Of a DNA stretch of 28,519 nt, positions 17,074 through 28,519 are shown piece after piece. A program made the translations under genes and the position numbers. This DNA comes from a virus: IMG/VR virus record IMGVR_UViG_3300030328_001676, positions 1-28,519 of that record; one strand, 5' to 3'. Position 1 is the stretch's first letter; every line of letters begins with the position of its first letter. The notes below the pieces were generated by a model that had not been told where the DNA came from, did not search any database, and saw only the letters and a list, made by a program, of their open reading frames with translations.

Positions 17074-18153
17074 TTAACCAACAGCCGGTGCTTTTAATGC
17101 AATTGGTACAATGTTATTACTAGCCAGATCAAGCGGGAAGTTATGAGCATTGCGTTCATGCATTACCTCAAGACCAAGGTCTGCACGGTTCAAAACGTCA
17201 GCCCATGTAGGGATAACATGACCGTGAGTTTCAACAATTGATTGATTAAAATTAAAACCGTTTAGGTTAAAAGCCATGGTGCTAACACCAAGGGCAGTGA
17301 ACCAAATACCAACAACCGGGAAGGCAGCCAGGAAGAAGTGAAGGCTACGGCTATTGTTGAACGAAGCATATTGAAAGATGAGACGACCGAAGTAGCCATG
17401 AGCTGCAACGATGTTGTACGTCTCTTCTTCTTGTCCAAATTTATATCCATTGTTATGTGATTCAAATTCTGTGGTTTCACGTACGAGTGAAGATGTAACC
17501 AAAGAGCCGTGCATAGCACTAAATAGAGAACCACCGAACACTCCAGCAACGCCCAGCATATGGAAGGGGTGCATAAGAATGTTGTGCTCTGCCTGAAAAA
17601 CAAGCATAAAGTTGAACGTACCGGAGATACCGAGCGGCATACCGTCAGAGAAGGATCCCTGACCGAATGGGTAGACAAGAAACACGGCAGATGCTGCAGC
17701 CACAGGTGCGCTGTAAGCAACGCAGATCCAGGGGCGCATGCCTAGTCGATAACTAAGTTCCCATTCTCTTCCCAGGTAAGCAAAGATACCAATGAGGAAG
17801 TGGAACACGACGAGCTGATACGGTCCGCCGTTGTAGAGCCATTCGTCAAGACTTGCGGCTTCCCAGATGGGGTAAAAATGTAGCCCGATTGCATTACTTG
17901 AGGGAACAACTGCTCCTGAGATGATGTTGTTTCCGTATAGGAGTGATCCTGAAACTGGTTCTCTAATGCCATCGATGTCAACGGGAGGTGCGGCGACGAA
18001 CGCCATTACAAAACAAATGGTTGCTGCTAACAAGCAGGGAATCATAAGGACTCCGAACCAACCAACATAAAGACGATTATTAGTGGAAGTAACCCAGGAA
18101 CAAAAATCATCCCAGGTACTACTAACACTTGGTTTAAGAATACTAGATGCCAT
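17074..18153 (-). CDS. psbA: Photosystem II reaction-centre protein D1
   Basis: Complete 359-aa D1, the auxiliary gene that replaces host D1 to keep photosystem II running during infection. Five transmembrane helices and all diagnostic residues are present: Tyr161 (Tyr Z), Asp170 (Mn ligand), His190, His198, His215, Ser264 and His272, then His332, Glu333, His337, Asp342 and Ala344 for Mn cluster ligation and C-terminal processing. The C-terminal extension after Ala344 is [15 protein letters not shown]. Residue 130 is Glu, the high-light (D1:2) type. There is no intron or frameshift. It lies between the beta-barrel gene and a small-gene cluster on the way to the capsid gene, the usual cyanopodovirus location. 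No hli gene accompanies it. Confidence 0.99.
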
Positions 18154-18197: not shown

Positions 18198-18557
18198 TTA
18201 GAACTTGTAGGTTACACCTACTTTTGTACCGATGCTGAGTTCATCAACATCAAACTCTTTGTCTTCAGTTAGGAAAGATACTTCACCATAAAGGTTCAGA
18301 TCAGTTGACAGGTCAGTACCGAACCCCAGCTTGCCGGAGTACTCAGTAGAACCTGCAGCATCTTTTGTAGATACGAAGGCAGGACCACCTTGAACATAAA
18401 TGCCACTACCAAATTCATAACCAGCGTGGACTTCTGTTAGTCCAACACCGAATTCAGAATTCTGCCAAGAGGCATTGTTCTCGATGTTTGCATAGGGTCC
18501 GGCAACTGCCGGAGCAGCAATGGACAGGAGGATACCAGTAGCAATAATAGATTTCAT
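18198..18557 (-). CDS. Secreted outer-membrane beta-barrel protein, 119 aa
   Basis: The N-terminus MKSIIATGILLSIAAPAVA is a clear Sec signal peptide with an Ala-x-Ala cleavage site, leaving a mature protein of about 100 residues starting GPYANIENN. The mature part is alternating beta strands (VHAGYEF, GIYVQGGPAFVS, YSGKLGFGTDL, NLYGEVSFL, LSIGTKVGVTYKF) and ends in Phe, the classic C-terminal signal for Bam-dependent insertion. This describes a small outer-membrane barrel of about 6-8 strands. As I recall, similar proteins occur in other marine cyanophages with unknown role. A phage protein sent to the host outer membrane could alter permeability or block superinfecting phage; both are inference. 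It occupies a slot where related phages often carry hli. Confidence 0.85.
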   Translation of the reverse strand: MKSIIATGILLSIAAPAVAGPYANIENNASWQNSEFGVGLTEVHAGYEFGSGIYVQGGPAFVSTKDAAGSTEYSGKLGFGTDLSTDLNLYGEVSFLTEDKEFDVDELSIGTKVGVTYKF

Positions 18558-21245: not shown

Positions 21246-23192
21246 TTACACCGAATCTAATATCACCTCATTACCGTCTTCATCCCATGTGATGAAATTA
21301 CCGTCTCTAAAGGTTGCTCTTTGCATTCCTGATTGCTCACGGTTGTGCTCAGTTCTAACTTCTTGTGGAGTTAAATTATATTTAGCAACATCATCTAGAT
21401 CATTCCATTTAACTCTCCTACCAGTAGAAAGGTCAGTAATCTTGTACCTAAACCCATCTCGGTTGTCATAGTTAACTTCGTAACCCCCAACGTTACCATC
21501 AGCATCTGTTGTTCTAAGGAATGAACTACCACTTTGACCACTTGATAGGCTTCTCTTCCATTCAGGGAACCAATCTTTAGCTTCAAGTCCATCCCAAGGC
21601 ATTGTTTGTGGTTCAGGTTCAACTTCTGGTTCAGGTTCAACTTCTGGTTCAGGTTCAACTTCTGGTTCAGGGTCACCATCATCTATAGGTGTACCTCCAC
21701 CATCATCATCACCATCATCTATAGGTGTACCTCCACCATCATCATCACCATCATCTATAGGTGTACCATCATCATCTATAGGTGTACCATCATCAGGATT
21801 TCCTAGATCAGGATCATTACCTGTATATTCAGGATCATCTGGACGACCATAATCAGGATCAAAGTCCTCACCTCGATCAAGAGGATCTAAAGGTTCAGCA
21901 ACAAACTCTTCTCGATCAGGTCTATAGTAAGTATAGTCTGGCTGTTCCGATACATAAGTACCTTCCCATTCACCATATTCACGAGTAGGTAATACTTGAA
22001 CAGGACCTTGACGACTTAAAGGATCAGGGTCAAACCTAGCCATTTGATCTAAGGTCTGCTGTCTAGTAGTTATATCTCTGTTAATATTGTAATCTTCCAC
22101 TTCATAATTTTCTGGTTGAAACATGTTAATTAGTTCTTCTGAATTAAAAGATCTATTAGAAACCATTTCTTGATATCGTTCCTCAATACCTGCAGCTTCA
22201 GCCAGAAGTTCAGACTCTATTTGACTATAAGGTTTAATATTAAGTCCTCTTGCAGTCAGGTCAGCTACGTAATCAGCATCTAATTGTCTCCATTCTTCTT
22301 CAGTTAAACCAGTAGCATCTAGTATTGCCTGTCTTTCTTCATCAGACAATGCTTCAAAATTACGAAGTTGATCAGAAACATAATTGGGATCAGGTCTACC
22401 TAGATGTTCTGTTGCCTGATATTCCATTTCCCATGGCTGAATATTAAGATCATATTCAGGAAGATATGGATTGTAGTCTCGTTCTACTTCTTGTTCTGGT
22501 GGGTCAGGTACTTGTGCAGGATCCCAATATTGGAAATGAACATCTCCATCTGGGTCTTGCCACCTAAAATCACCAGGCTCATTGCCACGTCTAATATCTA
22601 AATAGATTTCATGACCAATGCTGTCCTCATCTTCTAGAAAGTCAAGTAACTTCTCTTCGAATTCATCTTTGTCTGTGCCTTCAACACCTACTGTGTGACC
22701 AAGGAAACTATTTTGAATGTCTAAATCATTCCCATCGCCATCTAGGAATATATTGTTATGTTCATTTCTAAATATATCCCACTGTCTTTCTATGTAAGCA
22801 TCTAATGCATCTCTCCATCCTTCTCCACCTTCGACGAATTCAGGAATGAAACCAACAGCACCTGCATAATAATTTGCATCAGGTAGTCCACCACTACCGT
22901 CCAGCATCGCGCCATCCCAGACTACTTGGTAACTTCCATCCGGGTTTCGGACATTATTAGTAATGACAACGCTATCAACTCCTTCGTTAGCATTATGAAA
23001 ATATCTAGGATCAGATGAAACTTCAGTCAGAGCTTCATTCATTAACTGAGAAAACTCTGCGTCACTAATATCAGGTACTATTTGACGTAGCTGTTGAATA
23101 TCTACCTGCGCTATTGTTCCATCAAGAATGCGACCTTGAAAAGAATCCCAAAATTGTGAGTAGCCTTCTAAGTATTCATTCTGATACGCCAT
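21246..23192 (-). CDS. Large acidic repeat-containing protein, 648 aa, unknown
   Basis: Unrecognised protein between the ribonucleotide reductase block and the portal. It has the strongest ribosome site in the window (GAGGAGGAG before ATG) and a start overlapping the preceding gene by 17 nt. It begins MAYQNEYLEGYSQFWDSFQG and is extremely rich in Asp, Glu, Tyr and Pro. Residues about 1-465 look like repeated short helices and loops; 468-528 is low complexity (TPIDDGDDDGGG units, then EPEPEV units); 530-648 is a separate C-terminal domain (KDWFPEWKRSLSSGQSGSSF …). There is no signal peptide or membrane segment. A virion or head-assembly role is suggested by position. The acidity might also indicate a DNA mimic, but that is a guess. 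Confidence 0.85.
   Translation of the reverse strand: MAYQNEYLEGYSQFWDSFQGRILDGTIAQVDIQQLRQIVPDISDAEFSQLMNEALTEVSSDPRYFHNANEGVDSVVITNNVRNPDGSYQVVWDGAMLDGSGGLPDANYYAGAVGFIPEFVEGGEGWRDALDAYIERQWDIFRNEHNNIFLDGDGNDLDIQNSFLGHTVGVEGTDKDEFEEKLLDFLEDEDSIGHEIYLDIRRGNEPGDFRWQDPDGDVHFQYWDPAQVPDPPEQEVERDYNPYLPEYDLNIQPWEMEYQATEHLGRPDPNYVSDQLRNFEALSDEERQAILDATGLTEEEWRQLDADYVADLTARGLNIKPYSQIESELLAEAAGIEERYQEMVSNRSFNSEELINMFQPENYEVEDYNINRDITTRQQTLDQMARFDPDPLSRQGPVQVLPTREYGEWEGTYVSEQPDYTYYRPDREEFVAEPLDPLDRGEDFDPDYGRPDDPEYTGNDPDLGNPDDGTPIDDDGTPIDDGDDDGGGTPIDDGDDDGGGTPIDDGDPEPEVEPEPEVEPEPEVEPEPQTMPWDGLEAKDWFPEWKRSLSSGQSGSSFLRTTDADGNVGGYEVNYDNRDGFRYKITDLSTGRRVKWNDLDDVAKYNLTPQEVRTEHNREQSGMQRATFRDGNFITWDEDGNEVILDSV
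21609..21790 (-). repeat. 18-nt and 36-nt tandem repeats in the acidic protein gene
   Basis: On the plus strand an 18-nt unit (ggttcaggttcaacttct) is repeated about three times from 21609, then a 36-nt unit built on 'atctataggtgtacctccac' plus a cat-triplet run repeats from about 21675, with shortened copies to 21790. They encode EPEPEV and TPIDDGDDDGGG units. Near-identical copies suggest recent slippage or unequal exchange. Confidence 0.9.
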
Positions 23193-23385: not shown

Positions 23386-24076
23386 TACTGTGTTCAAAAA
23401 AAGCAGGCATACGACCAGATTTAGTGGCTGCAAACTGTGGAGCTTTGCCCTGATACATCAGGTTGTCACTACTATCTAGCCAAAATTTTTTGTCTAAATA
23501 TCTGACCTCTGAGTTTCTACCTAGTGGTTGCATAACCCAGTTGATTGTTGCCTTCCTGAGTTTATCCAGGGAAGCAGACGGTCTGAGTCCAAGTTCCGTA
23601 CACACGAGAGAGTTGGCTGCAACATGAATTTGCTCATCTCTTGAGATGTCGGCGGATACGGTACGCATTCCAGCATCACCATTCCACCGAAAAAAGGGGA
23701 GAAGTACGAAGAAAATCGCACGCTCGGCAACCATTGCTTTGAGCACAGTGTGATCTGGATGCGAAGTCCACGCTTCTTTAAGTTTAAGTGCTTCTGCTTC
23801 TGCCTTGTCATCAACACCGTAAGCATCGGCGATGTAACCGAGAGCCAAGTCATGGTTCTCTTCATCGGTGACGTTTGACAGGAGTAAGTCGCGTGCCATA
23901 GACGGCACTTCATCAGCCAGGGCATCAGTTATAAAATCTCCCACAGGTAGTTCCATATGTCTCAAGGCAAGAGCACGGTGTATCGTCTCTTCTGCGCCTT
24001 CCCGGCATGTACCGGCAACAGGTCTCACTGGAGACCATTTGCGCTTCCGCGCCATTAGTTTTTCGTAGGGGTTCAT
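23360..24076 (-). CDS. nrdB: Class I ribonucleotide reductase, small (beta) subunit, compact, 238 aa
   Basis: Ferritin-like radical-generating subunit, ATGA-coupled to the alpha gene. Metal-ligand motifs are present: Glu72-x-x-His75 (EENH), Glu118 (MVAERAIFF) and Glu148-x-x-His151 (EQIH). The first-helix acidic ligand is uncertain (Glu42 or Asp47 are candidates). The position four after His75, where class Ia/Ib enzymes have the radical Tyr, is Leu79, so a stable tyrosyl radical there is impossible; a metal-based cofactor as in Ic/Id subclasses is the natural alternative. At 238 aa it is much shorter than usual (about 320-375). A related cyanopodovirus (P-SSP7) enzyme was, as I recall, reannotated from class II to class I. 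The chosen start avoids a TTG three codons upstream. Confidence 0.85.
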   Translation of the reverse strand: MNPYEKLMARKRKWSPVRPVAGTCREGAEETIHRALALRHMELPVGDFITDALADEVPSMARDLLLSNVTDEENHDLALGYIADAYGVDDKAEAEALKLKEAWTSHPDHTVLKAMVAERAIFFVLLPFFRWNGDAGMRTVSADISRDEQIHVAANSLVCTELGLRPSASLDKLRKATINWVMQPLGRNSEVRYLDKKFWLDSSDNLMYQGKAPQFAATKSGRMPAFFEHSNVNLPSYA

Positions 24077-25449
24077 TCTGCACAATCACATTGAGGTTCA
24101 TTAACTCCTTCAAATAGGTCGGCAAGATATCTATCAACATCCTCCTCATCAAGAGCAGCGTATGCATCAGACTTATCTTGTACATCACCCATTACTTGGA
24201 GACTGTAGTAAAGAGAGGTTTGTGGAGACTTAAGCCACTCTTCAATAAATTCCTCATTCATTGTTGCCATATCTGACCACCAATTAAAAGAGTATCCGTG
24301 AAGAAGTCCACTGCTTTGGTATAGTTTCATGATACCGTCAGCAACAGCTTTGTAATTATCCCATCCAACTTCGGATGCAATTTCTACTTCGCCATAATCA
24401 TATGTTTGGACACCAAAGGTGCCAGAGTCACGGTCAACAGTCCGTGCAATAGGTGGTGCTATTTCAGGTGCACAAGTAAATCCATCTGTGTCCTGTGAGC
24501 GGTAGCTACAAGACGCAGTAGGAGCGATTGCAAAGGCTCGAACCATATTGTATTGACGAGCAATTTCAGACGCTTCCTTGATCCCCTGAGCAATGCGAGC
24601 AACAAGCTCATAAGCTACTGTTGCTTTTGTTTCGTTGTTATTAAATTGTTGGAGTGCACGTCCAAACTGCTCGTAACTAACGTTGTATCTCCGCAAGAGA
24701 TTCGCGAGACCCAATACTCCAAGTCCAACCTGTCTATCAGTGGCAGAAGATAAGTACTCTCCAGTCTCTCCCACACCCGTTCTTGAATGTAACTCACATA
24801 GTTCTTGCATCCCGACACGGTAAGCTTTTGGGATGTCTTCATATGTACAGGCTCCGAGGTTGACGTGCTGTAGCAGACAGGTTCCTCTGGAGGGCAGGTA
24901 CACTTCAAGACAAACGTTTCCACGTATTCTCTTTGTTCCTTCATACTTAACTTTATTGAGCCAGATGTCACCGGCTTTAATTGCTCCTAATAGATACTGT
25001 TTAGTTAGTGGATCCATATCGTTCCACCATTCATCAGTGATGTTTACACATCGCTTGACCCATGGCAGTTGATCACGAGGAGTCCTAATAAACTCTTCGA
25101 TGTCGGGATGCGATGCATCAATATGGAGCACTATCGCACCGTTCTTGTATTTTCCACCCCTCCTTAGTGTTTCGTTGAGGCTGCTATAAATTCTTCCAAA
25201 CGAGACTGGACCTGAAGCAATAAGTCCATTGCCATTATCGCTTCCTTTCGGTCGTAGTTTTGAAAGGTGGATCGCGCATCCAGCGCCATTACGGAGTGCA
25301 TGAGAGGCGAAACGCCAGGAGCTTTCGATACCATTAGGACCCTCCATTGAGTCTTCAACAACAAATACTGTGCAGGACACTGGCAAGCGTCCTTCGGGAT
25401 CATCGATCCATGATTGCACCCGTCCGGTGCGAGAAATAAGATTAGACAT
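24073..25449 (-). CDS. nrdA: Class I ribonucleotide reductase, large (alpha) subunit, compact, 458 aa
   Basis: Reduces ribonucleotides to deoxyribonucleotides for phage DNA synthesis. The catalytic set is complete: redox Cys26 (LPVSCTVF), Asn178-x-Cys180-x-Glu182 (NVCLEV), partner Cys191 before VNLGA, the phosphate-binding APTASCSYRSQ loop, and a radical-transfer Tyr pair in TSLYYSLQ. The C-terminal Cys454-x-Cys456 can act as the thioredoxin-fed swivel. It lacks the N-terminal ATP-cone and is far shorter than E. coli NrdA (about 760 aa), so dATP overall inhibition is probably absent. The adjacent beta gene and the YY pair identify class I rather than class II. The start at 25449 lies inside the MazG gene end (8-nt overlap). 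Confidence 0.92.
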   Translation of the reverse strand: MSNLISRTGRVQSWIDDPEGRLPVSCTVFVVEDSMEGPNGIESSWRFASHALRNGAGCAIHLSKLRPKGSDNGNGLIASGPVSFGRIYSSLNETLRRGGKYKNGAIVLHIDASHPDIEEFIRTPRDQLPWVKRCVNITDEWWNDMDPLTKQYLLGAIKAGDIWLNKVKYEGTKRIRGNVCLEVYLPSRGTCLLQHVNLGACTYEDIPKAYRVGMQELCELHSRTGVGETGEYLSSATDRQVGLGVLGLANLLRRYNVSYEQFGRALQQFNNNETKATVAYELVARIAQGIKEASEIARQYNMVRAFAIAPTASCSYRSQDTDGFTCAPEIAPPIARTVDRDSGTFGVQTYDYGEVEIASEVGWDNYKAVADGIMKLYQSSGLLHGYSFNWWSDMATMNEEFIEEWLKSPQTSLYYSLQVMGDVQDKSDAYAALDEEDVDRYLADLFEGVNEPQCDCAE

Positions 25450-25825
25450 TGACAAGATCTTTCAAAATTGGTGGTTGATATTCTGGTCCTTTAAGAACCT
25501 TTCCGTCAGCTCGACGGATAGGTTTACCATCCAAGCCAAGCTTTGACATGTTTGATTTATGGACACGATCAAGTGCTTCTTCTAGATCCCATTCCATATT
25601 TTCTGCATACTGAAAGCAGACATAAACAAGGTCTGCTAACTCTTTTAATTCATTCTCATATGTTTCTGTATTGACAGCTGATCTGAACTCTTCGAATTCT
25701 TCAGCGATCAAACCCAGTTGCATAGTCCGGTTCTCCGTCGAGTTCTGGATTCCATAAGCTTGTCGGAACTGAATTGCTTGGTCGGAAAGAGAGCGTGGTG
25801 TTGTACGTACTGTGTTCGAGTTCAT
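25442..25825 (-). CDS. mazG: MazG-like nucleotide pyrophosphohydrolase, 127 aa
   Basis: All-alpha NTP pyrophosphohydrolase of the MazG/HisE superfamily. The Mg-binding signature is visible as EEFEEF followed by ELKELADLVYV, then FQYAENMEWDLEEALDRVHK and the phage-type C-terminus MSKLGLDGKPIRRADGKVLK. Cyanophage MazG proteins have been proposed to alter ppGpp or hydrolyse dNTPs; the substrate here is unknown. I start at the Met at 25825 (MNSNTVRTTPRSLSDQ), because SDQAIQFRQAYGI belongs to the domain; the frame is open further upstream but only inside DUF3310. That makes a 125-nt overlap with the DUF3310 gene. It sits just before ribonucleotide reductase, consistent with nucleotide metabolism. 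Confidence 0.87.
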   Translation of the reverse strand: MNSNTVRTTPRSLSDQAIQFRQAYGIQNSTENRTMQLGLIAEEFEEFRSAVNTETYENELKELADLVYVCFQYAENMEWDLEEALDRVHKSNMSKLGLDGKPIRRADGKVLKGPEYQPPILKDLVNV

Positions 25826-26003
25826 TTTCAAGATAGTGGATAGCCTTTTTAATGTCCTCCTCTTTCGTCTTAGGAGATTTGAAACCGGCTCTGCAAATAT
25901 ATTTAATAGCATTACCTAGGTGATAATTTAGATCTTGATCTCTAATGAAATCCCAGACCTCAATAGCTCCACGGGTGTAGTGAGAGGGTGATTTGTTTAC
26001 CAT
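25701..26003 (-). CDS. DUF3310-family protein, 100 aa
   Basis: Residues 6-64 carry the DUF3310 pattern common in phages: SPSHYTRGAIEVWDFIRDQD, then LNYHLGNAIKYICRAG, then KEEDIKKAIHYLENELE. The family's role is unclear; some members are labelled nucleotide-kinase-like. The ~36 residues after the domain (TYNTTLSFRPSNSVPTSLWN…) look unlike a folded extension and run through the start of the mazG frame, so the true C-terminus may be incidental. Its ATG overlaps the NblA-like stop by 7 nt. Confidence 0.85.
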   Translation of the reverse strand: MVNKSPSHYTRGAIEVWDFIRDQDLNYHLGNAIKYICRAGFKSPKTKEEDIKKAIHYLENELEHSTYNTTLSFRPSNSVPTSLWNPELDGEPDYATGFDR

Positions 26004-26203
26004 TGAGACAGTAAGTTTTTAACGTTGTTTCCTAAGACAAAACACTGACGCTGTAGTGCTAACAAAATAGTAATAAGATCTTCTTTGCTAGCTTTCTCTA
26101 CACCATCTTCTAGTTGTCTCATCTTAAATTGTTGCTCCATCGTTAAGTCAGTAACTGGAAACGGTGGAGGGGTTGAAGAGTATTGGTCCGTTGTCATAAT
26201 CAT
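25997..26203 (-). CDS. nblA: NblA-like phycobilisome degradation adaptor, 68 aa
   Basis: NblA binds phycobiliproteins and hands them to Clp protease, dismantling the light-harvesting antenna. From residue 20 the product reads LTMEQQFKMRQLEDGVEKAS then KEDLITILLALQRQCFVLGN and VKNLLSQW, matching the family pattern: L-x-x-EQ-x-F-x-x-R near the N-terminus, an acidic/helical middle, and a C-terminal helix of V-x-x-N-x-x-x-x-LL. Size fits NblA (about 55-65 aa). The first ~20 residues (Ser/Thr/Pro-rich) are extra; Met3 is an alternative start, and Met22 would remove the overlap. The gene starts 56 nt inside the exonuclease gene. The call is by pattern only; a marine cyanobacterial small helical protein of the same type is the alternative. 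Confidence 0.62.
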   Translation of the reverse strand: MIMTTDQYSSTPPPFPVTDLTMEQQFKMRQLEDGVEKASKEDLITILLALQRQCFVLGNNVKNLLSQW

Positions 26204-26867
26204 CTGCTGTAAGGATCTTTGCTAATCGTGCATTCCTTAAAGCATCTTCTTCCGTCAGACCTTTTTGAATGAACGCTCGGACCACACTATTCCAAGTGTA
26301 TCCGTATTCGGCAAAAAATTTTGCGCTAGTTTTTATACCGAATCCTGGTGCTCCTGAATAACCATCAGTTGAGTCACCAGCAAGTGTTTGGATAAGGAAC
26401 CATTCCCATCCAGATTGTTTATCGATTGTGAACATCTCTTCCATGTTGTATAACCTGCCTGGTATCTGTTTCATATCCTTATCGGGTGAAACAACTACGC
26501 AGTCATCATTCGATGTTGCATAGATACCCATAGCATCATCAGCTTCCAGTTCAGGCATACGGATGACTTTATATTCATCATGGAGTTTATGTATCACACG
26601 GCGATAGCCACATGGTTTCTTACGGTTGCGATGACCTTTATAGTCAGGAGCAACACGCTTTCTAAAATTAGTAGAGTCACTAAAGAATAGGATTACTTCA
26701 GAGTCAAAGAACTCACCACTAATACGATCAAGATCTCTTTTTACACCATTGTAGGCTTCAGAGAATTTAGAGCCAACCATAATGACATCATCGCCCCAAT
26801 CAATGTCGTACTCAGCAGCAGCGCAACTCTTATAGACAATGTAATCAGCATCAATTAAAAGTTTCAT
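26148..26867 (-). CDS. 5'-3' exonuclease (T7 gp6-like, FEN/PIN domain), 239 aa
   Basis: Metal-dependent exonuclease that degrades host DNA for nucleotides and removes RNA primers. Acidic active-site clusters are visible: LLIDADYIVY at the N-terminus, then the RKRVAPDYKGHRNRKKP helix-gateway segment, PELEADDAM, VVVSPDKDMKQ and TLAGDSTDGYSGAPGFGIKT (the helix-hairpin-helix region). Length is shorter than T7 gp6 (300 aa) but all motifs are present. The ATG at 26867 has GAGGT upstream and lies 17 nt inside the talC 3' end; a TTG four codons earlier was rejected. It feeds the MazG and ribonucleotide reductase functions next to it. Confidence 0.9.
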   Translation of the reverse strand: MKLLIDADYIVYKSCAAAEYDIDWGDDVIMVGSKFSEAYNGVKRDLDRISGEFFDSEVILFFSDSTNFRKRVAPDYKGHRNRKKPCGYRRVIHKLHDEYKVIRMPELEADDAMGIYATSNDDCVVVSPDKDMKQIPGRLYNMEEMFTIDKQSGWEWFLIQTLAGDSTDGYSGAPGFGIKTSAKFFAEYGYTWNSVVRAFIQKGLTEEDALRNARLAKILTADDYDNGPILFNPSTVSSY

Positions 26868-27492
26868 GATCAACCTCAAACTGACGCAAACCTGATTCAG
26901 TCAACACATGCTCAAACATCTGCCAAAAGACAGGTGAAGGCATAGTGACTACATCAGCTCCGTTGTAATAAGACCTAACTGCTCTATGAGGAGTTCGAAT
27001 AGATGCTGCTAGTACTTGAGTGCTAAGACCAGTAGTTTTATACAAGCCAGCAATACTTCTAACAACCTCAAGACCTGAGTAACCTTGGTCATCAATGCGA
27101 CCAACAAATGGTGATACATAAGTAGCACCTGCTTTAGCTGCTAGCAATGCTTGAGCAGCATTAAAGATTAAAGTGACGTTAGTACGTACACCATTACTAG
27201 ATAAGTACTTACATAGTTTCAATCCATCTTGATTCATAGGAAGTTTGACAGTACAAATATCGCCAAACATACTTATCAATTTATTTGCTTGTTTTTCCAT
27301 CTGTTGTAGGTTGCCTACTACTTCCATTGAGACATCTTCAACACCTAATTGCTCAAGTGATTTATAGACCTCAATAGGATCTTTACCTACCTTCCTTAGA
27401 AGGCTGGGGTTAGTAGTAACACCATCAATAAGACCTGTACCTAGGCATCTAATGATTTCACCAGTGTTAGCAGAGTCAATAAAGATTCTCAT
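26851..27492 (-). CDS. talC: Transaldolase (TalC / fructose-6-phosphate aldolase type), 213 aa
   Basis: Short transaldolase of the kind carried by many cyanophages, thought to pull carbon through the pentose phosphate pathway for NADPH and ribose during infection. Catalytic residues are in place: Asp6 (MRIFIDSAN), GVTTNPSLL, Schiff-base Lys83 in CTVKLPM, NVTLIFNAAQALLAAKAGA, YVSPFVGRIDD and VLAASIRTP, then GADVVTMP. Its ATG overlaps the stop of the 38-aa gene, and its end overlaps the exonuclease start by 17 nt. In the best-known cyanopodoviruses, as I recall, talC lies near the terminase end of the genome; here it is within the replication genes. Confidence 0.95.
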   Translation of the reverse strand: MRIFIDSANTGEIIRCLGTGLIDGVTTNPSLLRKVGKDPIEVYKSLEQLGVEDVSMEVVGNLQQMEKQANKLISMFGDICTVKLPMNQDGLKLCKYLSSNGVRTNVTLIFNAAQALLAAKAGATYVSPFVGRIDDQGYSGLEVVRSIAGLYKTTGLSTQVLAASIRTPHRAVRSYYNGADVVTMPSPVFWQMFEHVLTESGLRQFEVDHETFN

Positions 27493-27605
27493 CCCTGACC
27501 TCTACTCATCTTGCGATCACCTTTAGGTTTACTTAGACGACCTTGACCTTGTGTTGTCTTTTTCTTTGTGGACTTTGTTTCTTTCTTGTTTTTGTTGTAT
27601 AGCAT
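27489..27605 (-). CDS. Lysine-rich 38-aa mini-protein between DNA polymerase and talC
   Basis: Starts MLYNKNKKETKSTKKKTTQG and ends SKPKGDRKMSRGQG, with 11 Lys and 3 Arg. Its ATG shares one base with the polymerase stop (TAATG) and its TGA overlaps the talC ATG (ATGA), so it bridges the two genes without a gap. That exact fit is the main evidence that it is translated; an RGQG-type basic tail suggests nucleic-acid binding. It may equally serve as a coupling leader for talC. No homologue is known to me. Confidence 0.65.
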   Translation of the reverse strand: MLYNKNKKETKSTKKKTTQGQGRLSKPKGDRKMSRGQG

Positions 27606-28519
27606 TAGTGGGTGGTGCTCCAGTCTTTTCCTTTGACGGCTTCAGCATCAATTCTGATCCGCATGTTGTAGTACTCTCCAGCTTCTGTAGCTGCAAGTAC
27701 CAGGGATGAACATAAATCGTCGGCATGTTTTGGTTCTACTTCAAATTGCAGCTCATCATGTACAAACGCTAGTTGGCTACAGCAGAGCTTTAGTTCTTTT
27801 ATGTGGTCCTGATTTATAACCATCCAACGCTTAGCTATAACACCAGCGCCAGATTGCAATAGATAATTCAACGCTTTGTGAGGTGAATCCACCGCAATTT
27901 TTCTTCCATCGATAGATCGAATGGAGCCTTGCTCTGCAGTTTTCTTAATTGCTTCCAAGAGTGGACCCAATCCGTCAACCGCGTCAATAAACGCTGATCT
28001 AATCTCTTTGCCTTTTTTCTTAGCTTTGGAGGTTGATAACTGTTGGTCATAACTGTGTCCGATTTTTTCATCTCCAGCTCCATACAACATTGCGTATTGA
28101 ACCGTCTTGACTTGTCTCCTTGAAATTCCTATCTTGTCGGCATTAATTTGATGTATATCTCCATTCAGGAGAATATCCGCATAGCGACCATTGTCATACC
28201 GAGAAAGATAATGAGCAAGCATCCGAAGCTCAATCCCAGAAAGATCAGCTCCAACCATGACTTGACCTTCGCTTGCAATAAATAAACTTCTAAATCGTTC
28301 ATCACTATTTACTTGGGCGAGGTTTGGATTACGATGAGCACAACGATGGGTATTAGTAGATACACTACAATGGTGATGTAATCTGCCATTAGTCGTACAT
28401 AGCTTCAGCCAAGCGTTCGTGCCTTCCGAGATCTGACCAAGCATTTTCGTTACCGTCAAACATCTCAGAAACATCGTAGAAATCTCTGACCCAATCTCTT
28501 TCAACACCACTTCGTCGAT
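27605..28519 (-). CDS. T7-like family A DNA polymerase, C-terminal polymerase domain (runs off right edge)
   Basis: The last 304 residues of the replicative polymerase; the frame is open to the window edge, so the N-terminal exonuclease domain lies outside. Visible order: LTVTKMLGQISEGTNAWLKL, HRNPNLAQV, motif A GADLSGIELRMLAHYLSRYD, motif B RRQVKTVQYAMLYGAGDEKI (Tyr four after the Lys, as in T7 Tyr526), DGRKIAVDSPHKALNYLLQS and motif C AFVHDELQFEV. The end GKDWSTTH parallels T7 gp5 GPNWAICH. The TGRATH-type segment reads THRCAH here, slightly unusual. It overlaps the next small gene by one base. Confidence 0.96.
   Translation of the reverse strand: MDEVVLKEIGSEISTMFLRCLTVTKMLGQISEGTNAWLKLCTTNGRLHHHCSVSTNTHRCAHRNPNLAQVNSDERFRSLFIASEGQVMVGADLSGIELRMLAHYLSRYDNGRYADILLNGDIHQINADKIGISRRQVKTVQYAMLYGAGDEKIGHSYDQQLSTSKAKKKGKEIRSAFIDAVDGLGPLLEAIKKTAEQGSIRSIDGRKIAVDSPHKALNYLLQSGAGVIAKRWMVINQDHIKELKLCCSQLAFVHDELQFEVEPKHADDLCSSLVLAATEAGEYYNMRIRIDAEAVKGKDWSTTH

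Follow-up and report, generated by a model that had tools for sequence, protein, structure and literature searches.

A short reading frame between the exonuclease and DUF3310 genes

NblA delivers phycobiliproteins to the Clp protease, and the locus described here raises the question of whether a small gene of a T7-like marine cyanophage encodes such an adaptor and which host proteins it would act on. The window, that is, the whole stretch of DNA analysed, comprises 28,519 nucleotides of the IMG/VR record IMGVR_UViG_3300030328_001676. The reading frame lies at 25997–26203, exactly the interval originally proposed, and is encoded on the minus strand; the plus strand of this interval contains many stops throughout. 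Its 68-residue product is MIMTTDQYSSTPPPFPVTDLTMEQQFKMRQLEDGVEKASKEDLITILLALQRQCFVLGNNVKNLLSQW, in which the motifs quoted in the original prediction are correctly read. The 5′ end of the frame overlaps the exonuclease gene by 56 nt and the 3′ end extends 7 nt into the DUF3310 gene, at a junction (CAATGGTAA) where the ATG of the DUF3310 gene immediately precedes the nblA stop codon TAA. Since several close relatives lack Met1 but keep Met3 (L004 and L006, “..TIMTTD”), the conserved start is probably at 26197, which would yield a protein of 66 residues. Either length fits the NblA size of about 50–70 residues.

The protein is under strong purifying selection. In the core of the gene, defined from LTMEQ to the final Trp and thus outside the exonuclease overlap, dN/dS against close relatives (L003–L019) is ~0.01–0.12, and the two loci L001 and L002 encode a core protein identical to that of the window, differing by silent changes only.

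Assignment to the NblA family

The window protein matches the Pfam NblA profile PF04485 over positions 1–47 of 50 (E=8e-11, 42.7 bits), 17 bits above the curated cut-off of 25 bits, which bears out the NblA identity first suggested from the letters alone. A six-frame search of the DNA recovered the same profile at 42.2 bits, and PF04485 was the only Pfam family listed for the protein up to E=10. The sole matches among PDB sequences are the four solved NblA proteins (3cs5, 2q8v, 2qdo, and 1ojh; E from 0.0009 to 1.4). In PHROGs the protein falls in phrog_27006 (E=6e-20), a group of unknown function, so that this resource gives it no NblA label.

In an alignment of 39 phage proteins, including that of the window, 38 match PF04485, and E23, Q24, and L64 are invariant. 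The phycobilisome-binding residues at the C-terminus of Anabaena NblA, which we take to be L51 and K53, align with the invariant L64 and with S66 of the window protein, respectively. The K53-equivalent site is variable in phages, being occupied by K, S, T, or E, with T in S-TIP37. The segment LTMEQ (residues 20–24) corresponds to the N-terminal L-T/S-x-E-Q motif of NblA, and has been named as the conserved motif (PMC5083919).

The fold was predicted with AlphaFold2 for the monomer alone, from the single sequence and then from the 39-sequence alignment. The latter model contains two helices, residues 22–37 and 40–67, with pLDDT values of 88–93 in these regions but a low pTM of 0.45. A Foldseek search of the PDB with the predicted monomer retrieved no chain, not even NblA; for a protein that functions as a dimer, a monomer of two helices is a weak query. 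A search of BFVD returned nothing usable, so that the fold speaks neither for nor against the NblA identity.

Genomic neighbourhood

All the window genes described in this section are on the minus strand. The upstream neighbour of the nblA-like gene is a T7 gp6-like 5′–3′ exonuclease (26148–26864; phrog_107, E=1.6e-62; 5_3_exonuc_N), preceded by the talC transaldolase (26851–27492; TAL_FSA, E=3.2e-47), which is placed between the exonuclease and a T7-like DNA polymerase that is incomplete at the window edge (27605–28510; DNA_pol_A, E=2.2e-31). Downstream are the DUF3310 or “nucleotide kinase” gene (25701–26003; PF11753, E=1e-15; phrog_236), a MazG-like nucleotide pyrophosphohydrolase (25442–25912; phrog_671, E=5e-34; PRA-PH/MazG), and a ribonucleotide reductase (24073–25455; PF02867, E=3.5e-23). 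This gene order confirms the proposed nesting of nblA among replication and nucleotide-metabolism genes. The photosystem II D1 protein is encoded by psbA at 17074–18153 (Photo_RC, E=2.5e-90); both psbA and talC, expected from the first inspection, are thus confirmed by their profile matches.

Among the 80 fetched viral nblA loci, only the two nearest relatives, L001 and L002, carry talC between the DNA polymerase and the exonuclease, and the next nearest locus, L003, with 94% nblA identity, has no talC at that position. The best isolate matches of the window TalC, at ~60%, are mainly from large-genome (T4-like) cyanophages. These comparisons suggest that talC was inserted here recently, within a single small clade. 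Two further genes of the window deserve mention. Between the ribonucleotide reductase genes and the portal gene, 21246–23192 encodes an acidic protein of 648 residues with GTPIDDGDDDGGG and PEPEVEPE repeats, which has no PHROG and no match among phage isolates, its relatives being found only in the IMG/VR loci L002, L017, and L220 (37–40%). Between the scaffold gene and psbA, 18198–18557 encodes a 119-residue protein that is found in 400 cyanophage records and belongs to phrog_417, a group of unknown function; judged by eye, it looks like an outer-membrane β-barrel with a signal peptide.

Distribution among phages

A tblastn search with the window protein found 42 phage records, nearly all of T7-like cyanophages, 36 of them with at least 80% coverage; the phage records with the gene (at least 36) include S-TIP37, P-SSP7, and P-SSP3. 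Relatives are also encoded in 161 IMG/VR stretches. The order pol-exo-nblA-DUF3310-mazG-rnr is common to most of the loci examined, and the window, with its additional talC after pol, agrees in this order with S-TIP37 (L082), S-B28 (L219), and NATL1A-7 (L217). Wherever the contig covers the site, the fetched viral loci have nblA directly after the exonuclease, as do S-TIP37, P-SSP7, P-SSP3, and NATL1A-7. In P-SSP10, 9515-10a, SS120-1, S-TIP28, P60, and Syn5, which do possess the exonuclease, no copy was detected in its vicinity, and nblA is therefore a marker of one subset of the T7-like cyanophages.

In the records examined the gene is unannotated or “hypothetical”, and it has been missed or mislabelled in deposited genomes: the reading frame has no CDS in the feature tables shown for S-TIP37, P-SSP3, and NATL1A-7, and is “uncharacterized” in P-SSP7. 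P-GSP1, a phage of Prochlorococcus MED4, contains a strongly diverged nblA-like gene (L209, 2138–2401), in which EQ is changed to HQ and which does not match PF04485; this copy is possibly decaying or repurposed. Many phage copies possess a C-terminal tail of 10–35 residues past the conserved Trp (L083, 5007–5315; also L021, L023, and L035), often ending in ..KFGISxETKD; this tail may run into the beginning of the following gene, and it is missing from the clade of the window.

Alternative identities of the gene

Family membership, the conserved position, the conservation of the protein, and the co-occurrence with psbA and talC are direct results of this analysis. By analogy with characterized members of the family, we consider it very probable that the window gene is a phage-borne nblA whose product would act as NblA does. 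Weighing against this reading are the low identity to cyanobacterial NblA, the Ser at the position of K53, the failure to match the predicted fold to NblA or any other chain, and the related copies in phages of Prochlorococcus. The overlaps with neighbours at both ends, and the fact that the frame is unannotated in several deposited genomes, could suggest a chance reading frame over genuine genes. This explanation, whose probability we regard as practically negligible, is ruled out by the selection test, which was confined to the region outside the exonuclease overlap; the dN/dS values, the 161 IMG/VR relatives, and the excess of 17 bits over the Pfam cut-off place the gene far beyond chance.

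A small helical phage protein that is unrelated to NblA and resembles it by convergence, possibly one that modulates the exonuclease or nucleotide metabolism, would account for the constant association with the genes for the exonuclease and MazG, and for the failure of Foldseek to find a structural match to NblA. It would have to score this far above the curated cut-off by convergence, however, and to find NblA structures alone among its PDB matches; in addition, Syn5, P60, S-TIP28, SS120-1, and P-SSP10 keep the exonuclease with no nearby copy detected, which indicates that the exonuclease does not require the gene. Such convergence is very improbable.

Host and origin of the gene

The original prediction took the gene to point to a host with phycobilisomes. 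This step proved unsafe, because Prochlorococcus phages (P-SSP7, P-SSP3, and NATL1A-7) bear the gene and hold it under constraint, with 5 nonsynonymous and 23 synonymous differences between the P-SSP7 and P-SSP3 cores, so that nblA alone is no proof of such a host; Prochlorococcus is devoid of both phycobilisomes and nblA orthologs (PMC7439483). The flanking genes and the overall similarity of the window are nearest to Synechococcus phages, and for this reason a Synechococcus host is likely.

Regarding the source of the gene, the PF04485 cut-off is passed by 46 of 59 genomes across the class vs 1 of 201 in the Synechococcus RCC307 family, and a profile built from phage nblA gave a single match among 151 genomes of the same family. 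As the likely hosts' own genes match the phage gene poorly, these searches lend no support to a recent capture from such hosts. The single picocyanobacterial match (L166) proved to lie in a T7-like phage segment with the order pol-exo-nblA-mazG, and is not a host gene. This block, located around 21.7 kb on contig G034:C3 of a picocyanobacterial assembly, would be either a provirus or a phage contig that was binned with the assembly.

Comparison with known NblA proteins

The closest counterparts are the NblA proteins of other T7-like cyanophages, S-TIP37 and further cyanopodoviruses, with which the window shares the profile family and the site downstream of the gp6-like exonuclease. Identity to the S-TIP37 protein is 50%, and the window protein fits PF04485 better (42.7 vs 27.8 bits); it stops right after the conserved Trp, whereas the S-TIP37 and P-SSP7 copies extend C-terminally. 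S-TIP37 is reportedly the phage studied by genetics in the 2025 work of Nadel and colleagues, in which the protein loss is said to be wider than the phycobilisomes.

The likeness to cyanobacterial NblA (S. elongatus 3cs5, T. vulcanus 2q8v/2qdo, and Anabaena 1ojh) lies in the length, the LTxEQ that opens helix 1, the two helices, predicted in our case, and the Leu of the C-terminal binding site. Identity is low, ~31–33% over the core for the 3cs5 and 2q8v sequences, and the window protein differs by a phage-specific block, ALQRQCFVLGNN, a terminal Trp, and Ser replacing Lys53. The NblA proteins of the freshwater cyanophages Ma-LMM01, MaMV-DC, and PaV-LD are likewise phage-borne, and act on phycobilisomes (PMC9602691, PMC5083919); in the published tree they form a separate branch, with the marine and estuarine cyanopodovirus copies clustering apart (PMC9602691).

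The presence of nblA in marine cyanopodoviruses has already been published (2019, 2025), and the window is a new sequence of a known type. As described in PMC9602691, Nadel et al. 2019 predicted the gene for 14 isolates of cyanopodoviruses, and an NblA from a marine virus was active in S. elongatus, where it caused phycobilin loss. Nadel et al. 2025 (Nature 648:434) is cited in PMC12892361 for the degradation of host light-harvesting complexes by oceanic cyanophage NblA.

Possible targets other than phycobilisomes

The persistence of copies in phages whose Prochlorococcus hosts have no phycobilisomes implies that phycobilisomes are not necessarily the target in all of these phages. It is possible, although we put it forward tentatively and think the contrary likelier, that the NblA-like proteins of T7-like cyanophages have acquired targets in addition to phycobilisomes or in place of them. 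On this view the constrained copy of the Prochlorococcus phages must have another target, and the window protein may share this second activity. In a stronger form, the protein would be an NblA-derived adaptor that still feeds the Clp protease but has been retargeted, its main targets being other host proteins and phycobilisomes being secondary or irrelevant. The Prochlorococcus phage copies speak for it, both by persisting although Prochlorococcus has neither phycobilisomes nor nblA (PMC7439483) and by the low proportion of nonsynonymous differences between P-SSP7 and P-SSP3. The block LALQRQCFVLGNN, far better conserved within phages than between phages and cyanobacteria, and the altered K53 position point in the same direction. 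Yet the window protein outscores that of S-TIP37 on the cyanobacterial NblA profile, and a marine viral NblA was shown to act on phycobilisomes (PMC9602691). On balance, full retargeting appears unlikely.

Proposed role during infection

Returning to the preferred reading, that of a phage NblA acting as its cellular counterparts do, the small helical protein would be expressed alongside the phage's genes for replication and nucleotide metabolism. By analogy, it would bind phycobiliproteins and hand them to the host Clp protease for proteolysis. The antenna would then shrink, amino acids would be freed, and light capture would fall, while the phage PsbA would sustain photosystem II and TalC would redirect carbon. 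Such a three-part programme of psbA, nblA, and talC is plausible and agrees with what has been published.

A review citing Nadel et al. 2025 puts the reduction in global photosynthetic light capture at up to 5% (PMC12892361). Phage NblA ties virus infection to ocean light harvesting, and the window adds a copy of nblA whose genome also encodes psbA and talC. The constrained copies of the Prochlorococcus phages, in turn, raise a testable question about the target of this protein.
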